64,000 bases of DNA from contig NC_014365.1 in NCBI RefSeq assembly GCF_000143965.1, forward strand, positions 2,383,501 through 2,447,500, in the 5' to 3' direction. Shown one piece after another: positions 49,048 to 55,850 of the stretch (the stretch's first letter is position 1; each line of letters opens with the position of its first letter). This stretch comes from Desulfarculus baarsii DSM 2075. Its GTDB lineage: Bacteria > Desulfobacterota > Desulfarculia > Desulfarculales > Desulfarculaceae. The position numbers and the translations under genes are program-made. The notes under the pieces were generated by a model. The model was given only the letters and a program-made list of their open reading frames with translations, did no database searches and was not told the DNA's origin.

Positions 49048-50967
49048 ATGGCCAAAACCCTGGCGCGCAAAATCATCGAAGAACACTTGGTGGAGGGCCG
49101 CTGCCAGCCCGGCGAGGAGATCGGCCTGCGCATCGACCAGACCCTGACCCAGGACGCCACCGGCACCCTGGCCGCCCTGGAGTTCGAGGCCCTGGGCCTG
49201 GAGCGCGTGCGCACCGAGGTCTCGGTGTCCTACGTCGATCACAACATCTTGCAGTCCGACTTCAAAAACCCCGACGACCACCGCTTTTTGCGCTCCATCG
49301 CCGCGCGCTACGGCCTGTGGTTCTCGCCGCCGGGCAACGGCATCTGTCACCAGCTGCACATGCTCAATTTCGGCCGGCCCGGCGCCACTCTCCTGGGCTC
49401 CGACTCCCACACGCCCCACGGCGGCGGCCTGGGCATGCTGGCCATGGGCGCGGGAGGCCTGGACGTGGCCGCGGCCATGGCTGGCCAGCCGTTTTTCCTC
49501 ACCTACCCCAAGGTCTTGGGCGTGCGCCTGAGCGGTAAACTGTCGCCGTGGGTGGGGGCCAAGGACGTGATTTTGGAGCTGCTGCGCCGGCTGTCGGTCA
49601 AGGGCGGGCTGGGCTATGTCGTCGAATACCACGGCCCCGGCGTGACGGGGCTTAGCGTATTGCAGCGGGCGGCCATCACCAACATGGGCGCGGAGTTGGG
49701 CGCGACCAGCAGCGTCTTCCCCAGCGACGAAAAGACCAAGGCCTTCCTGACCGCCCAGGGCCGGGCCGACGCCTGGCGCGAGATGAGCGCCGACGACGGC
49801 GCGGTCTACGACAAGCTCGAGGAGATCGACCTGGCCGCCCTGGAGCCCTTGGCCGCCTGCCCCTCCAGCCCCGACGCCGTGCGCCCCGTGCGCGAGTTGG
49901 CCGAGGTGGCCGTCGAGCAGGTCATTGTCGGCTCGTGCGGCGGTGGCAGCTACGAAGACCTGATGACCATCGCCATGGCCCTCAAGGGCAAGGCCCTGGC
50001 CCCCGGCCTGAACCTGTCGGTCAACCCCGGTTCGCGCCAGGCCCTGGCCCAGGTCACGGCCAACGGCGCGCTGTTGGACATGCTCGAGGCCGGCGTGCGC
50101 CTGCATCAGGCCGGCTGCCTGGGCTGCATCGGCATGAGCCAGGCCCCGGCCACTGGCGCGGCCAGCGTGCGAACCTTCCCGCGCAACTTCCCCGGCCGCT
50201 CGGGCACCAAGGACGACCGCGTCTATCTGACCGGCCCCGAAGTGGCCGCGGCCACGGCCCTGGCCGGTCACCTTGCCGATCCGCGCCAGGTCTTCGGCCC
50301 CCAGGAGCCGATCCCCCCCGCGCCGGCCGTGCGGCCCGAGGCCCTGGTCGCCCCGCCGGCCGACGGCGCGGGCGTCGCGATCGTCCGCGGGCCCAACATC
50401 GCGCCCTTTCCCCAGTTGCCACCGCTGGCCGACGACCTGGTCTGCACCGTGGCCCTGAAGGTCGGCGACAACATCACCACCGACCACATCATGCCCGCCG
50501 GCAGCAAAATCCTGCCCCTGCGCTCCAACGTGCCGGCCATCAGCCAGTTCGTGTTCAATGCCGTCGACCCCGACTTCCCGGCCAAGGCCCAGGCCTGCGC
50601 GCCGGCGGCGGTGGTGGGCGGCGACAACTACGGCCAGGGCTCTTCCCGCGAGCACGCCGCCCTAGCCCCGCGTTACCTGGGCGTGCAGGTCAAACTGGCC
50701 AAGAGCTTCGCCCGCATCCACAAGGCCAATTTGATCAACTTTGGCGTGCTGCCCCTGGTTTTCGCCGATCCGGCCGACTATGACAGGCTAGACGAAGGCC
50801 AGCGCATCGAGCTGCGGGGCGTCAAGCGGGCCCTGCTGGAGGGCGCTGAAAACCTCACCGCCCTGGTCGACGGCCAGCCCGTGGAGCTTCGCCTGGAGGC
50901 CTCGCCCCGCGATCGCCAGATCCTGGCCGCCGGCGGCCGACTCAATCACATCAAAAACGCCCTCTAA
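49048..50967 (+). CDS. Aconitate hydratase
   Basis: 639 residues, the length of the short bacterial/archaeal-type aconitase rather than AcnA or AcnB. GSDSHTPHGGGLGMLAMGAGG, Fe-S ligands C297 (GSCGGGSYED) and C357/C360 (GCLGCIGM), then the swivel domain with DNITTDHIMPAG and GGDNYGQGSSREHAAL. Converts citrate and isocitrate through cis-aconitate with a 4Fe-4S cluster. Single gene with own promoter; last base codons overlap the opposite glycosyltransferase gene by four bases (CTAA). Confidence 0.93.
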   Translation: MAKTLARKIIEEHLVEGRCQPGEEIGLRIDQTLTQDATGTLAALEFEALGLERVRTEVSVSYVDHNILQSDFKNPDDHRFLRSIAARYGLWFSPPGNGICHQLHMLNFGRPGATLLGSDSHTPHGGGLGMLAMGAGGLDVAAAMAGQPFFLTYPKVLGVRLSGKLSPWVGAKDVILELLRRLSVKGGLGYVVEYHGPGVTGLSVLQRAAITNMGAELGATSSVFPSDEKTKAFLTAQGRADAWREMSADDGAVYDKLEEIDLAALEPLAACPSSPDAVRPVRELAEVAVEQVIVGSCGGGSYEDLMTIAMALKGKALAPGLNLSVNPGSRQALAQVTANGALLDMLEAGVRLHQAGCLGCIGMSQAPATGAASVRTFPRNFPGRSGTKDDRVYLTGPEVAAATALAGHLADPRQVFGPQEPIPPAPAVRPEALVAPPADGAGVAIVRGPNIAPFPQLPPLADDLVCTVALKVGDNITTDHIMPAGSKILPLRSNVPAISQFVFNAVDPDFPAKAQACAPAAVVGGDNYGQGSSREHAALAPRYLGVQVKLAKSFARIHKANLINFGVLPLVFADPADYDRLDEGQRIELRGVKRALLEGAENLTALVDGQPVELRLEASPRDRQILAAGGRLNHIKNAL

Positions 50968-52148
50968 GGCGTCAACCAACGCCACTCCGGCCGGGCCCGC
51001 GTCGCCAAGCGCATCAGCACCGGGCCCGCGCCGGCTGGATCATCCTCGGCCAGCCGGCCAAAGAGCCAACGCGCCATGGCCTCGGCCCGCTCCTCGCCCA
51101 GCAGCCGGCCCAAAACCTCCGTCGCCTCGCCATGTCGGCCCAGACGGGCCGCGGCCACGCACCAATGTGCCAAAACCTCGGGCGCGCGCCCGGCCGAAAG
51201 GTTGTGCGGGAAGGGATAGGCCTGGGGCATGGCCCGCCAGCGGTCCTGGCTTTCCATGAAGCGCCGGCCGTGACGGCAGACCGACGACCAACGTTTCATC
51301 TGAAAAAAGGCCCAGCACAGGCTGTAGAGCGGATCGGGATAATCGGGCAAGAGCGTCAGGCACTGATTGGCCGTCTCGATCAGCTCGTCCAGGCGGCCCA
51401 GCGTGGTCAGGGCCATCATCAGCGGATGATAGGCCCTGGTCAACTGCTCCTTGGCCACGCCGCCGGCCTGGCCGACGGCCAAGGCTTGGCGAGCGGCGGC
51501 CAGGGTCTGGTTGGCGTCGCCGGCCCCGGCCATCAGGGACTGGGCCAGATAGGCGCGCGCCGAAAAATCGGCGGGCGCTTCATCCACCCAGCGCTGGATC
51601 AGCTCCAGGTTGCGCCTAGCCTTTTGCGCGGTGATCTGTGGCGATTGGGCAAAGCCGTGATGGATGAGCGTCAGCGGCGCGGCCAGCGCCCTGCCGCCGC
51701 CGGCCAGCGCCTCGTGGATGCGGCCGACAAAGCGCAGCCCGCTGTCGGCCCGCACCAGGCGCGGCGTCAGTTGCCAACTGGCCGAGCCATCCAGGGCCAG
51801 GTGCTCGATGCGAACCAACAGGCAATCGCCGTCGGCCGCCCGCAGCGCCGGCCGCAAGCGCGGCCCCGAGTCGGCGCTGACAAGCTCGTCGGCGTCGAGG
51901 ATCAACAGCCAGCGGCCGCTGGCGTGATCCATGGATTGATTGCGCGCCAGGGCGAAATCGCCTTGCCAGGGGTGCTCGAAGACCTTGGCCCCGTGCTGGC
52001 GGGCCAGATCACGCGTTTCGTCGCTGGAGCCGGTGTCGACGACGATGATCTCGTCGACCCACGACGCGGCGCTGGCCAGGCTGCGCGGCAGCCAGAGACG
52101 CTCGTTTTTGGCGATCATGCACAAAGACAACAACGGACGCTGGCTCAT
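50964..52148 (-). CDS. Family 2 glycosyltransferase with C-terminal TPR-like region
   Basis: 394 residues from ATG at 52148, with GTGGAG before it. GT2 domain (about 1-215): LSLCMIAKNERLWLPRSL, IIVVDTGSSDET, WLLILDADEL (DxD). The C-terminal half is all-helical with repeats such as LAQSLMAGAGDANQTLAAARQAL, typical of TPR. This family is common near exopolysaccharide or flagellin-glycan genes but stands alone here. The 211-base gap in front contains a long inverted repeat. Confidence 0.85.
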   Translation of the reverse strand: MSQRPLLSLCMIAKNERLWLPRSLASAASWVDEIIVVDTGSSDETRDLARQHGAKVFEHPWQGDFALARNQSMDHASGRWLLILDADELVSADSGPRLRPALRAADGDCLLVRIEHLALDGSASWQLTPRLVRADSGLRFVGRIHEALAGGGRALAAPLTLIHHGFAQSPQITAQKARRNLELIQRWVDEAPADFSARAYLAQSLMAGAGDANQTLAAARQALAVGQAGGVAKEQLTRAYHPLMMALTTLGRLDELIETANQCLTLLPDYPDPLYSLCWAFFQMKRWSSVCRHGRRFMESQDRWRAMPQAYPFPHNLSAGRAPEVLAHWCVAAARLGRHGEATEVLGRLLGEERAEAMARWLFGRLAEDDPAGAGPVLMRLATRARPEWRWLTP

Positions 52149-52275
52149 GGCGCTCCACCGCGTGAGAATGGCCGTTTCTCGGCGTAGCGTGATTGTAGCA
52201 CGGCCCGCCCGCCACGAAAAATCACCGTGCGGCCGCGCAAAAACCTTGCCTCGCCGCGCCGACGGCGCTATCTTT

Positions 52276-52334
52276 GTGACCACCTGGTCATAGAGCCGGG
52301 TTGTTGTTTGTCTTTCGTATGACCAGGTGGTCAC
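52276..52334. promoter_or_regulatory. 17-bp-arm inverted repeat made of two copies of a palindromic operator
   Basis: GTGACCACCTGGTCATA (52276-52292) and its exact reverse complement (52318-52334) flank a 25-base loop. Each arm is itself a palindrome TGACCA-N2-TGGTCA, so this is two operators in inverted order and could also form a cruciform or RNA hairpin. It ends 26 bases before mqnE and lies between divergent genes. Confidence 0.75.
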
Positions 52335-52359: not shown

Positions 52360-53529
52360 ATGCAATCCAGCGCCGCCAAACTTTCGCATCATGACAGCCA
52401 CTTCGACCTGGCCCAGCCCCTGCCGCCCCTGGAGATCGACCTGGGCCTGCTCGACGACCGGGCCCTGATCACCGTCGGCCGCAAGCTGGCCCAGGGCCAG
52501 CGCCTGGACCTGGAAGACGGCCTGCGCCTGATGACCAGCCGCGACCTCAGCGGCCTGGGCCATCTGGCCCATCAGGCCCGCCTGGCCAAAAACGGGCTCA
52601 GGGCCTATTACGTGCGCAATCGCCACATCAATTACTCCAATGTCTGCGCCAATGGCTGCGCCTTCTGCGCCTTCTGGCGCGAGCCGGGCCAAAAGGGGGC
52701 ACAGACCATGACCCCGGCCCAGGCCGCCGCCCTGGCCGCGCAAAACCCCGACATGCCCCTGGAAGAGCTGCACGTAGTGGGGGCCTGCAATCCGGGGCTG
52801 GATTTTTCGTATTATCCCGATCTGTTGCGCGCCCTGGGCCAGGCGCGGCCCCAGGCGGCGCTAAAGGCCTTCACCGCCGTGGAGATCGACCACATGGCCC
52901 AGGTCGCCGGACTCGATGTTTGCCAAGTGCTGGATATATTGCGGCAAGCCGGCCTCAAGGCCATGCCCGGCGGCGGGGCCGAGGTCTTCGCGCCACGGGT
53001 GCGCCGGGCCCTGTGCCCCAGCAAGCCCAGCGGCGCGCGCTGGCTGGAGGTCTCGGGCCTGGCCCACCAGATGGGCCTGCAAACCAACGCCACCATGCTC
53101 TACGGCCACATCGAAACGGCCCAGGAGCGGGTGGAGCACCTCTTGGCCCTGCGCGAACAGCAAGACAAGACCGGCGGCTTTTCGGCCTTCATCCCCCTGG
53201 CCTTCCATCCGGCCAACACCAAGCTGGCCCACCTGGCCCCCACCACGGCCCTGGATGACCTGCGCGTCATCGCCACCAGCCGCTTGATGCTCGATAACTT
53301 CCCGCACATCAAGGCATATTGGGTCATGCTCAGCCCCAAGCTGGCCCAGGTGGCCCTGGGCTACGGGGCCGACGACCTGGACGGCACCATCGTCGAGGAG
53401 CGCATCACCCACGAGGCCGGGGCCAATACCGCCGTGGGCCTGACCGAGGCCGAACTGCGCCAGATGATCGAGGCCGCCGGCTGCGCGCCCGTGCGCCGCG
53501 ACGCTTTCTACAACGCCGTGGAGGACTGA
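52360..53529 (+). CDS. mqnE: Aminofutalosine synthase MqnE (radical SAM)
   Basis: 389 residues from ATG 52360 (AGGAAACC before it). Radical-SAM CxxxCxxC at C96, C100, C103 (NVCANGCAFCAF), then LHVVGACNPGLDFSYY, PGGGAEVF and AFHPANTKLAHL. Uses SAM to add the adenosine unit to 3-[(1-carboxyvinyl)oxy]benzoate in the futalosine route to menaquinone. Followed by mqnC six bases later, with which it shares sequence. Likely controlled by the double operator just upstream. Confidence 0.88.
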   Translation: MQSSAAKLSHHDSHFDLAQPLPPLEIDLGLLDDRALITVGRKLAQGQRLDLEDGLRLMTSRDLSGLGHLAHQARLAKNGLRAYYVRNRHINYSNVCANGCAFCAFWREPGQKGAQTMTPAQAAALAAQNPDMPLEELHVVGACNPGLDFSYYPDLLRALGQARPQAALKAFTAVEIDHMAQVAGLDVCQVLDILRQAGLKAMPGGGAEVFAPRVRRALCPSKPSGARWLEVSGLAHQMGLQTNATMLYGHIETAQERVEHLLALREQQDKTGGFSAFIPLAFHPANTKLAHLAPTTALDDLRVIATSRLMLDNFPHIKAYWVMLSPKLAQVALGYGADDLDGTIVEERITHEAGANTAVGLTEAELRQMIEAAGCAPVRRDAFYNAVED

Positions 53530-53535
53530 CAGGCC

Positions 53536-54633
53536 GTGGCCCAAGCTCAAAGCAGACTCTCCCTGCTCGACCAGGCCCTGGAGGCGGCCGCCAGCGGCGC
53601 GCGCCTGAGCGACGATCAGGCCCTGGCCCTGTTGCTGGAGGCGCCGCCGCACGAACTGGCCGTGCTGGCCCACCGGGCGCGCCTGGCCAAAAATCCGGCG
53701 ATGATCGTGACATACGCCGTCGATCGCAACATCAACACCACCAATGTCTGCCTCAGCGGCTGCCGCTTCTGCGCCTTTTTCCGGCCGCCGGGCGCGCCGG
53801 GCGGCTACGTGCTGAGCCCCGAGGAGATCGACCGCAAGATCGCCGAGACCATCGCCCTGGGCGGCACGCAGATTCTGGTGCAGGGCGGCCTGCACCCGGA
53901 AATCGGCGTGGAGGAGACCTGTCGCCAGATCCGGCGGATCAAGAAAAACTTCAACATACATGTCCATGGCTTATCGCCGCCGGAGGTCGTGCACATGGCC
54001 GCCGTCGACGGCATGGACATCGACCAGGCCCTGGACCGACTGATCGCCGCCGGCCTGGGCTCGATCCCCGGCGGCGGGGCCGAGATCCTCGTCGATAGCG
54101 TGCGGCGACGCATCGCGCCGGGCAAATGCAGCGGCCGCCAATGGCTGGAAGTCATGGCCCGGGCCCACGCCAAGGGCCTGTTCACCACGGCCACGATGAT
54201 GTTTGGCAGCCTGGACGGCCCGGCCGAGCGCATCGGCCACATGGCCCTGCTGCGCGCCCTGCAAGACCAGAGCCTGGCCCGGGGACGCGGCTGTTTCACG
54301 GCCTTCATCCCCTGGACTTTTCAGCCGGCCAACACGGCCCTGGCCCACCTCACGCCGCTGACGGCGGTGGATTATCTGCGCACGCTGGCCGTCAGCCGGC
54401 TTTATCTGGATAATTTCGCCCACGTCCAGGCCAGTTGGGTCACCCAGGGGGCCAAGATCGCCCAGTTGGCCCTGCTGCACGGGGCCGACGATCTGGGCTC
54501 GACGATGATCGAGGAAAACGTGGTGGCGGCGGCCGGGGCTTGTTTTCGCCTGGACCGCGCGGAAATGATCCGCCTGGCCGACGACTTGGGCTACCAGGCC
54601 CGCCAGCGCGACACCCTCTACCGCCTGCTGTGA
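53536..54633 (+). CDS. mqnC: Cyclic dehypoxanthinyl futalosine synthase MqnC (radical SAM)
   Basis: 365 residues from GTG 53536. CxxxCxxC at C72, C76, C79 (NVCLSGCRFCAFF), then QILVQGGLHPEIG, VHGLSPPEV, SIPGGGAEIL and FIPWTFQPANTAL. Closes the spiro ring in the futalosine menaquinone pathway. Paralogue of MqnE in the same operon; GTGA overlap with the amidohydrolase gene. Menaquinone fits an anaerobic respirer. Confidence 0.92.
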   Translation: MAQAQSRLSLLDQALEAAASGARLSDDQALALLLEAPPHELAVLAHRARLAKNPAMIVTYAVDRNINTTNVCLSGCRFCAFFRPPGAPGGYVLSPEEIDRKIAETIALGGTQILVQGGLHPEIGVEETCRQIRRIKKNFNIHVHGLSPPEVVHMAAVDGMDIDQALDRLIAAGLGSIPGGGAEILVDSVRRRIAPGKCSGRQWLEVMARAHAKGLFTTATMMFGSLDGPAERIGHMALLRALQDQSLARGRGCFTAFIPWTFQPANTALAHLTPLTAVDYLRTLAVSRLYLDNFAHVQASWVTQGAKIAQLALLHGADDLGSTMIEENVVAAAGACFRLDRAEMIRLADDLGYQARQRDTLYRLL

Positions 54634-55850
54634 GCCCGGCGGTGCGCGAGACGCGAAGCCAAGCCTTCACCGCCCGCTGGCTGTGGCCGGGGCCGGGGCG
54701 CCCGCGTGAAAACTGGCAAGTCACCCTGCGCGACGGCCGGGTGAGCGCCGTGGGCCCGCGTCGCCTCGGCCAGCCGGCCCAAGACCTGGGCGAGGGCCTG
54801 CTGCTGCCCGGCCTGGTCAACGCCCACTGTCACCTGGAGTTGGCCGGTCTGGCCGGTCTGTTGCCGCCCGACGGCGATTTCGTGGGCTGGGTCCAGCGCC
54901 TGGTGCGCCTGCGCCCCAGCCAGGATCCGGCCCAGGCCGCGCGGCAAACCGCCGACGCCGCCAGCCGGATGGCCCGTTGCGGCGTGGCCCTGGTGGCCGA
55001 CATCACCAACACGGGCCTGGCCCGCCAGGCCCTTTTCGCGGCAGGTCTGCACGCCATCAGCCTGTTCGAGGCCTTGGGGCCCAGCAACTGCCAGCCGCCG
55101 CCGCCCCAACTCACCTGGCAAGACGGCCGGCTGGCGGCCCAGGGCGTGGCCGCCCACGCACCCTACTCAGTGCCGGGGCCGCGCATCGCCGCGCTCAAGG
55201 CCCTGGCCGGTGGGCAGGCATTCAGCATTCATATGGCTGAATCAATTGCCGAAATGGAACTTTTTGCCGGCGATGGCCCGCAAGGCCGCCGCCTGGCCGA
55301 ATTTTTGTTTGGCCGCGGGGCCGACGTGGCCGGGCTGGGTCTGCTGGCCCGGCGACCGCTGGCCCACCTGCGGGCCCTGGGCGTGCTCGATCGCCGCACG
55401 CTCTTGGTCCATGGCGCGCAGCTATCGCCCGACGAGGCCCACGAGTTGGCCGCCGACGGTCCGTCGCTGTGCCTGTGCCCGCGCTCCAACCTGGGCCTGA
55501 CCAGGACCATGGCCCCCGCGCCGCTACTGTTGGCCGCCGGGGTCAACCTGTGCCTGGGCACCGATTCGCCGGCCTCCACGCCAGACCTTAATTTGTGGAA
55601 CGAAATGAAAGCCTTGGCCGAGCATTACCCCGGCTTGGCCCCGGACGCGATCCTGGAGATGGCCACCGGCGGGGGGGCCAGGGCCTTGGGCCTGGATCAG
55701 CGCTTCGGCCGGCTGGCCGAGGGCATGCACGCGCCGCTCTGCTTCGTGCCGCTGGATAGCCGGCCAGAGTTAAAGCACGTGCTCGAAGCTGTCGTGCTGG
55801 CGGCCGGCCCGGCGGCGGCCAGGGCCATCGGCAACGAAAAAATCAGCTAA
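54630..55850 (+). CDS. Amidohydrolase-family protein, probable aminofutalosine deaminase
   Basis: 406 residues from GTG 54630. Metal sites of the amidohydrolase superfamily: LVNAHCHLEL (HxH), FSIHMAES, a later His in LLVHGAQL and GTDSPAST (Asp). Families of this type include the chlorohydrolase/MTA-adenosine deaminase group. Position directly after mqnC suggests it deaminates 6-amino-6-deoxyfutalosine or a related adenosine compound. The function is inferred from context. Confidence 0.75.
   Translation: MSPAVRETRSQAFTARWLWPGPGRPRENWQVTLRDGRVSAVGPRRLGQPAQDLGEGLLLPGLVNAHCHLELAGLAGLLPPDGDFVGWVQRLVRLRPSQDPAQAARQTADAASRMARCGVALVADITNTGLARQALFAAGLHAISLFEALGPSNCQPPPPQLTWQDGRLAAQGVAAHAPYSVPGPRIAALKALAGGQAFSIHMAESIAEMELFAGDGPQGRRLAEFLFGRGADVAGLGLLARRPLAHLRALGVLDRRTLLVHGAQLSPDEAHELAADGPSLCLCPRSNLGLTRTMAPAPLLLAAGVNLCLGTDSPASTPDLNLWNEMKALAEHYPGLAPDAILEMATGGGARALGLDQRFGRLAEGMHAPLCFVPLDSRPELKHVLEAVVLAAGPAAARAIGNEKIS

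Follow-up and report, generated by a model that had tools for sequence, protein, structure and literature searches.

The mqnE locus and its doubled palindrome

The window (the whole stretch of DNA analyzed here, 64,000 nucleotides from Desulfarculus baarsii DSM 2075) codes for enzymes of the futalosine pathway of menaquinone biosynthesis, and a promoter-like sequence and two palindromes, which we term O1 and O2, precede the first of these genes. The features of the locus are as follows.

52246..52251, plus strand: -35-like box, TTGCCT
52269..52274, plus strand: -10-like box, TATCTT, at a 17-base spacer from the -35-like box
52276-52292: arm 1 of the inverted repeat in the window sequence, GTGACCACCTGGTCATA
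52277..52290, plus strand: operator O1, TGACCACCTGGTCA, matching the consensus exactly and kept before mqnE in the family
52293-52317: spacer between the arms, 25 bases
52318-52334: arm 2 in the window sequence, TATGACCAGGTGGTCAC, the exact reverse complement of arm 1
52320..52333, plus strand: operator O2, TGACCAGGTGGTCA, 43 bp past O1 within the leader, likewise matching the consensus exactly
52360..53529, plus strand: mqnE, aminofutalosine synthase, with its ATG at 52360 (TIGR03700, 462.7 bits; cut-off, 434.55)
53536..54633, plus strand: mqnC-like gene, cyclic dehypoxanthinyl futalosine synthase (TIGR03699, 420 bits, 8 below the cut-off of 428.1)
54435..55850, plus strand: amidohydrolase frame after mqnC (Pfam Amidohydro_1, 104.8 bits; cut-off, 25)

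TIGR03699 is the best NCBIfam model for the mqnC-like gene, which is separated from the end of mqnE by 6 bases; the two genes are probably carried on one transcript. The real start of the amidohydrolase probably lies further inside its frame. Its assignment as a possible aminofutalosine deaminase is a guess because the model for that enzyme scores 87.6 of 320 bits. The futalosine set of this genome thus consists of mqnE and mqnB over their cut-offs, mqnC 8 bits under, and two PF02621 genes (mqnA and mqnD) over the cut-off. Upstream of mqnE, Pfam matches mark an aconitase-like frame (49048-50967) and a glycosyltransferase family 2 gene (50964-52148). Aconitase-like motifs were also seen by eye upstream of mqnE in two relatives (G007 and G010), which suggests that the aconitase-mqnE order is ancient and that the glycosyltransferase gene was inserted later.

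A preliminary description of this DNA had reported a doubled palindrome with exact 17-base arms and a 25-base spacer before mqnE, each arm having the form TGACCA-N2-TGGTCA; the window sequence bears out both points, with this motif at 52277-52290 and 52320-52333. O1 and O2 are its only exact copies within the window, which at two or fewer mismatches holds 7 matches against 1.55 expected from shuffles, a count of 7 being reached by 0 of 100 shuffles. The pair far exceeds chance expectation, and it recurs before mqnE of relatives. The genome (3,655,731 bases in one contig) has a third exact copy at C1:1628503-1628516 (L001:1501), which by eye is the stem of a hairpin resembling a terminator 3' of a tRNA-like sequence, and this copy was therefore discarded as a further member of the regulon. 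The same copy does lend some color to the idea that the repeat is a terminator, a dispersed element of the REP or MITE-like kind, or a product of chance. However, there are just 3 exact copies genome-wide, the position before mqnE is conserved among relatives, and in the window sequence neither O1 nor O2 has a T-run immediately 3' of it, so that we consider this idea practically dismissed.

Conservation of the operator pair within the family

We searched for exact sites in all 20 genomes of the family set, the window's own (G000) included. The operator was found ahead of mqnE in 17 of these, 13 of which have two exact sites (G000, G002, G003, G006, G007, G009, G010, G011, G012, G015, G017, G018, and G019) and 4 a single one (G004, G008, G014, and G016). 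In G011, the site pair and mqnE are on different contigs, the pair at the end of one and mqnE close to the start of the other, and we infer their adjacency from the sister genome G006. As for the other three genomes, mqnE of G013 stands at a contig start with unreadable upstream sequence, G001 has mqnE genes with no site near any of them in the exact search, and no mqnE was found in G005. The preliminary description had made its reading depend on the recurrence of the repeat in related genomes, and the pair is indeed present before mqnE of relatives.

The O1-O2 spacings of the 13 pairs are 43, 47, 55-57, and 65 bp, corresponding to helical phases of 0.10-0.48 turn. Pooling 30 exact sites from the family with 38 from more distant genomes yielded a 16-base consensus, RTGACCA-NN-TGGTCAY, with a centre that is mostly G/C; when symmetrised, the first (outer) base is only A or G and never T in all 30 family and all 38 distant sites. 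The 12 palindromic bases are invariant, and by eye just 2 of the 13 pairs have complementary centre dinucleotides. Their differing without compensation indicates that selection maintains two palindromes in the DNA rather than a stem in the RNA.

This bears on the proposal that the repeat acts as an RNA hairpin (a 17-bp stem with a 25-nt loop) in the mqnE leader, where it would cause attenuation or affect stability. Because the predicted -10 box precedes both arms, the transcript could fold in this manner, and some relatives appear by eye to have a hairpin and a T-run between the sites. Against this, beyond the lack of covariation at the centres, in 6 of 11 loci in which mqnR (see below) adjoins mqnE the sites are approximately 700-900 bp apart with a gene in between, and elsewhere there is a single site. 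We accordingly discarded the hairpin or attenuator as a very improbable explanation; judged by sequence comparison, O1 and O2 are a conserved DNA operator.

In the loci L149, L151, L154, L155, and L044 (genera g3 and g7), inspection by eye showed a structure resembling an intrinsic terminator between O1 and O2, namely a short hairpin rich in GC with a T-run after it. By the same inspection it is absent from the window and from G003.

MqnR, a TetR-family protein, as the candidate binder

A TetR-family gene stands upstream of mqnE in 11 of 80 mqnE loci from other genomes, and every one of these 11 has the operator at the start of the TetR gene (10 exact sites and 1 with one mismatch). A one-mismatch site additionally stands directly before mqnE in 6 of them. 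In 3 more of the 80 loci an exact site precedes mqnE with no adjacent TetR gene, and the other 66 have no site at one or fewer mismatches. The encoded protein, here termed MqnR, is approximately 215 aa long in these relatives, and its gene, too, is preceded by this operator.

A profile built from six of the TetR proteins adjoining mqnE retrieved a single outstanding orthologue in 18 of the 20 genomes of the family, 16 times in full and twice as a piece truncated by a contig end. The two genomes in which this profile search found no MqnR are G001, which has no operator at mqnE, and G005, which has no mqnE. The orthologue in the window's genome is the following.

C1:2628047-2628685, minus strand: mqnR, 216 aa

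This gene lies outside the window, about 190 kb away, in the order ribH-nusB-mqnR-mqnB-mqnD; mqnB adjoins mqnR in 15 of the 17 family loci read, the exceptions being two of genus g4. Its product matches the TetR_N helix-turn-helix domain (PF00440) with 52.4 bits against a cut-off of 24. No site at one or fewer mismatches occurs in 15 kb around mqnR in this genome, and hence the autoregulation seen in relatives appears to be absent here. In G004, which has one exact operator at mqnE, the mqnR frame of 466 aa (L176:733-2133, G004:C58, minus strand) consists of two fused TetR proteins.

A relative (from L116) was modelled as an all-helical protein of ten helices with a mean pLDDT of 87.8. A fold search with this model gave 336 PDB matches at an E value of 0.001 or lower, and among the 50 matches listed most were labelled as TetR-type regulators. 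The best of them (E of 9.9e-9) is PDB 3NRG, the uncharacterised TetR protein Caur_2714 of Chloroflexus aurantiacus, which also ranks first among solved structures in the profile comparison with MqnR (140.9 bits); we know of no function or operator for it. In a phylogenetic tree, 61 MqnR rows are separated with full support from 10 rows of paralogues, and several deep branches inside MqnR are not resolved.

The preliminary description took the repeat for an operator to which dimers of a regulator of futalosine genes would bind. That view gains a candidate here, since a TetR gene co-occurs with the pair and, in many relatives, is itself preceded by the operator. From this comparative evidence, MqnR is very probably the protein that binds O1 and O2.

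A different TetR-family protein might bind the operator instead, for instance a paralogue encoded in the genome or a pyrimidine regulator of the RutR type. RutR of Escherichia coli is, like MqnR, a TetR-family metabolic regulator with a 16-bp palindromic box, which we take to be TTGACCAnnTGGTCAA, with an outer T/A and a core of TGACCA-N2-TGGTCA like that of the operator, and the first profile gives 20 TetR-like matches in the window's genome. Nevertheless, RutR models all fall short of an E value of 1e-10 on its MqnR, and relatives score far under the RutR cut-offs, with 19-40 bits versus 368 (TIGR03613) and 230 (NF011584). The outer base of the operator also differs, being R/Y throughout the pooled sites and not T/A as in the RutR box. 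Further, RutR targets pyrimidine genes, whereas the predicted targets of MqnR are menaquinone genes. With respect to the paralogues, an operator before the own gene combined with menaquinone neighbors is a feature of MqnR and not of these proteins, the 10 rows of which branch apart from it. In light of these differences, we consider it improbable that a TetR protein other than MqnR is the binder.

Co-occurrence of MqnR and the operator across the phylum

In a sample of 297 genomes from the phylum, with MqnR called at an E value of 1e-45 or lower, MqnR was found in 56, of which 49 lie outside the family. The gene adjoins mqnE in 38 of the 49, stands beside mqnB or mqnD in 5 (G078, G115, G215, G239, and G343), and stands beside late quinone genes or the ABC transporter discussed below in 6, so that in all 49 genomes mqnR has menaquinone genes or the transporter as neighbors. 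These counts are not independent of those from the 80 mqnE loci, given that some of those loci and some genomes of the phylum sample supply identical MqnR rows.

In 41 of the 49 nonfamily MqnR genomes, mqnR or mqnE has an exact site immediately ahead of it. Conversely, 42 of the 56 exact sites in these genomes are located just before one of these two genes, and the sites before mqnR itself number 36 across the 49 genomes. In five genomes (G065, G066, G075, G163, and G166), mqnR, mqnE, or the mqnL operon has a site with one mismatch; exact and one-mismatch sites taken together cover 46 of the 49 MqnR genomes, a figure to be read with the fact that the controls were searched for exact sites only. 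The control comprised 80 of the 236 MqnR-less genomes numbered G060-G342, and 15 of these 80 have an exact site anywhere. No operator was found at mqnR or mqnE in G098 (exact search), G115, and G343. In G078, G215, and G239, where mqnR is located elsewhere beside mqnB or mqnD, the operator still stands at mqnE, which is the arrangement of the window's genome. Of the 14 exact sites in places other than mqnR or mqnE, 7 were read; 6 fall within open reading frames, apparently by chance, and 1, in G343, is in an intergenic region close to the end of a contig.

Site pairs also precede mqnE in two further genomes, with 2 and 3 mismatches in G020 and 1 and 0 in G021; the pair of G021 is flanked by a divergent PF02621 gene (mqnA-like) on one side and a shikimate kinase-mqnE unit on the other. 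Their MqnR proteins, found after the site pairs, are encoded next to mqnB and mqnD. A match at the level of MqnR was absent from the 38 other genomes of the class that were searched, G052 having a match at the level of paralogues only. By comparison of genomes, then, the conservation of the operator, its co-occurrence with the predicted regulator, and the linkage of mqnR to menaquinone genes are established.

Proposed regulatory mechanism

On the basis of these observations, we propose with considerable confidence that MqnR is a TetR-family repressor that would bind the doubled palindrome and control the menaquinone genes of the futalosine pathway. In D. baarsii, MqnR from the ribH-nusB-mqnR-mqnB-mqnD cluster would act in trans on mqnE-mqnC. 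Both DNA binding by MqnR and the role of O2 are predictions from sequence comparison.

The direction of control is suggested by the position of the sites. A promoter of the form TTGCC[TA]-17-TAnnnT lies 2-3 bases ahead of O1 in 7 of the 17 family loci, the window's included, and a match of this kind occurs at 39 of 16,234 (0.24%) background positions. This layout was not found in the other 10 loci, including all of genus g3. In the window, O1 starts two bases past the -10-like box, from which we infer repression: a dimer on O1 would cover the predicted transcription start and shut out RNA polymerase. The opposite possibility, that MqnR activates mqnE, has precedent in activators of the TetR family, such as the one named FasR, and would suit genus g3, where no promoter overlaps O1. 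However, O1 is located at the predicted transcription start, downstream of the -10 box, in the 7 loci noted above, and the sites before mqnR are close to the gene start, as in autorepression. Activation is therefore unlikely in our view, and repression of mqnE by MqnR is the likely mode of action.

Repression would be reinforced by a second dimer, bound to O2 within the leader, and O2 could act as a roadblock, as a cooperative partner, or as the anchor of a loop. Looping between O1 and O2 is possible, and the phases of 0.10-0.48 turn fit either way. The arrangement is reminiscent of QacR, the qacA/qacB operator of which lies downstream of the promoter and overlaps the start region, as O1 does; two QacR dimers occupy each operator region. 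QacR differs in controlling drug efflux, and the two palindromes here are separate, 43 bp apart.

Candidate importers of menaquinone precursors in the MqnR regulon

Six MqnR genomes have no mqnE (E value of 1e-90 or lower), no PF02621 gene (mqnA/mqnD), and no menD over the cut-off. Five of them are 97-99% complete and the sixth, G218, 73%; weak matches to the menD model under its cut-off occur in all except G195. Their mqnR loci are as follows.

L257, L258, L259, L260, L261, and L262: six MqnR loci with an NMT1-type ABC transporter, five of them with late quinone genes

The transporter is made up of an NMT1-type binding protein, an ATPase, and a permease. In G103, G195, and G066, the operator and mqnR are followed by a UbiD-type decarboxylase (mqnL), a UbiA-type prenyltransferase, and the transporter, and a one-mismatch site precedes the decarboxylase in this type; the operator ahead of mqnR in G066 also has one mismatch. 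The decarboxylase of G103 matches the menaquinone decarboxylase model with 636.8 bits (cut-off, 495.9), and the prenyltransferase of this type scores under the MqnP cut-offs. In G097 and G158, the operator and mqnR are followed instead by the transporter, menG/ubiE (225.5 and 239.7 bits, respectively; cut-off, 158.35), and a MenA-type prenyltransferase, which was recognized in G097 with 113.3 bits (cut-off, 102.15) and in G158 by PF01040 and similarity only. The contig of G218 stops after the transporter ATPase, before any late gene. In the tree, the mqnL-type and menG-menA-type loci fall in separate subclades of MqnR.

Matching the imported naphthoate to the adjoining late genes suggests that the mqnL-type transporter (G066, G103, and G195) may import 1,4-dihydroxy-6-naphthoate and that the menG-menA-type transporter (G097, G158, and probably G218) may import 1,4-dihydroxy-2-naphthoate. 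One further genome, G267 (L223 and L249), belongs to the same genus as three of these six genomes; its mqnR adjoins mqnE, and no PF02621 gene was found in it at 92% completeness. It fits the importer pattern less well, through either assembly loss or a partial pathway.

These loci also bear on the signal. DNA binding by MqnR would respond to a late naphthoquinone-type compound, this being the sole nameable kind of compound common to all MqnR gene contexts; as an identification of the ligand, we put this forward tentatively. The reasoning is that only late quinone compounds seem to be common to the candidate importer genomes and the futalosine genomes, so MqnR should sense a late naphthoquinone. 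The wider reading, in which the MqnR regulon includes unrecognised importers of menaquinone precursors and MqnR senses such a naphthoquinone, we regard as an even proposition.

Relation to earlier work and implications

Systems in which a TetR repressor acts at a palindromic operator are known already; MqnR is apparently unnamed, and the candidate importer regulon is apparently the newer part. Our literature search, which covered mainly openly accessible papers judged by title and the opening of the abstract, found no named regulator of the futalosine pathway, and the name MqnR as a whole word turned up in imaging papers only; an earlier prediction in subscription papers or regulon databases is possible. 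A 2025 study describes, in the part concerned, the microbial regulation of quinone levels as poorly understood (PMC12421875). In their 2016 analysis, Ravcheev and Thiele proposed that organisms with menA-menG alone use 1,4-dihydroxy-2-naphthoate, and they described precursor transporters as still to be predicted and validated (PMC4746308). Their account deals with gut genomes and, in the passages on this subject, names no transporter, whereas the operon defined here by its regulator supplies a candidate.

An anonymous palindrome thus becomes a testable regulator-operator pair that spans many families of one phylum. If the proposed regulon is correct, it would offer a candidate quinone-responsive repressor for biosensors, and some anaerobes that appear to be quinone deficient would depend on naphthoates from their neighbors.
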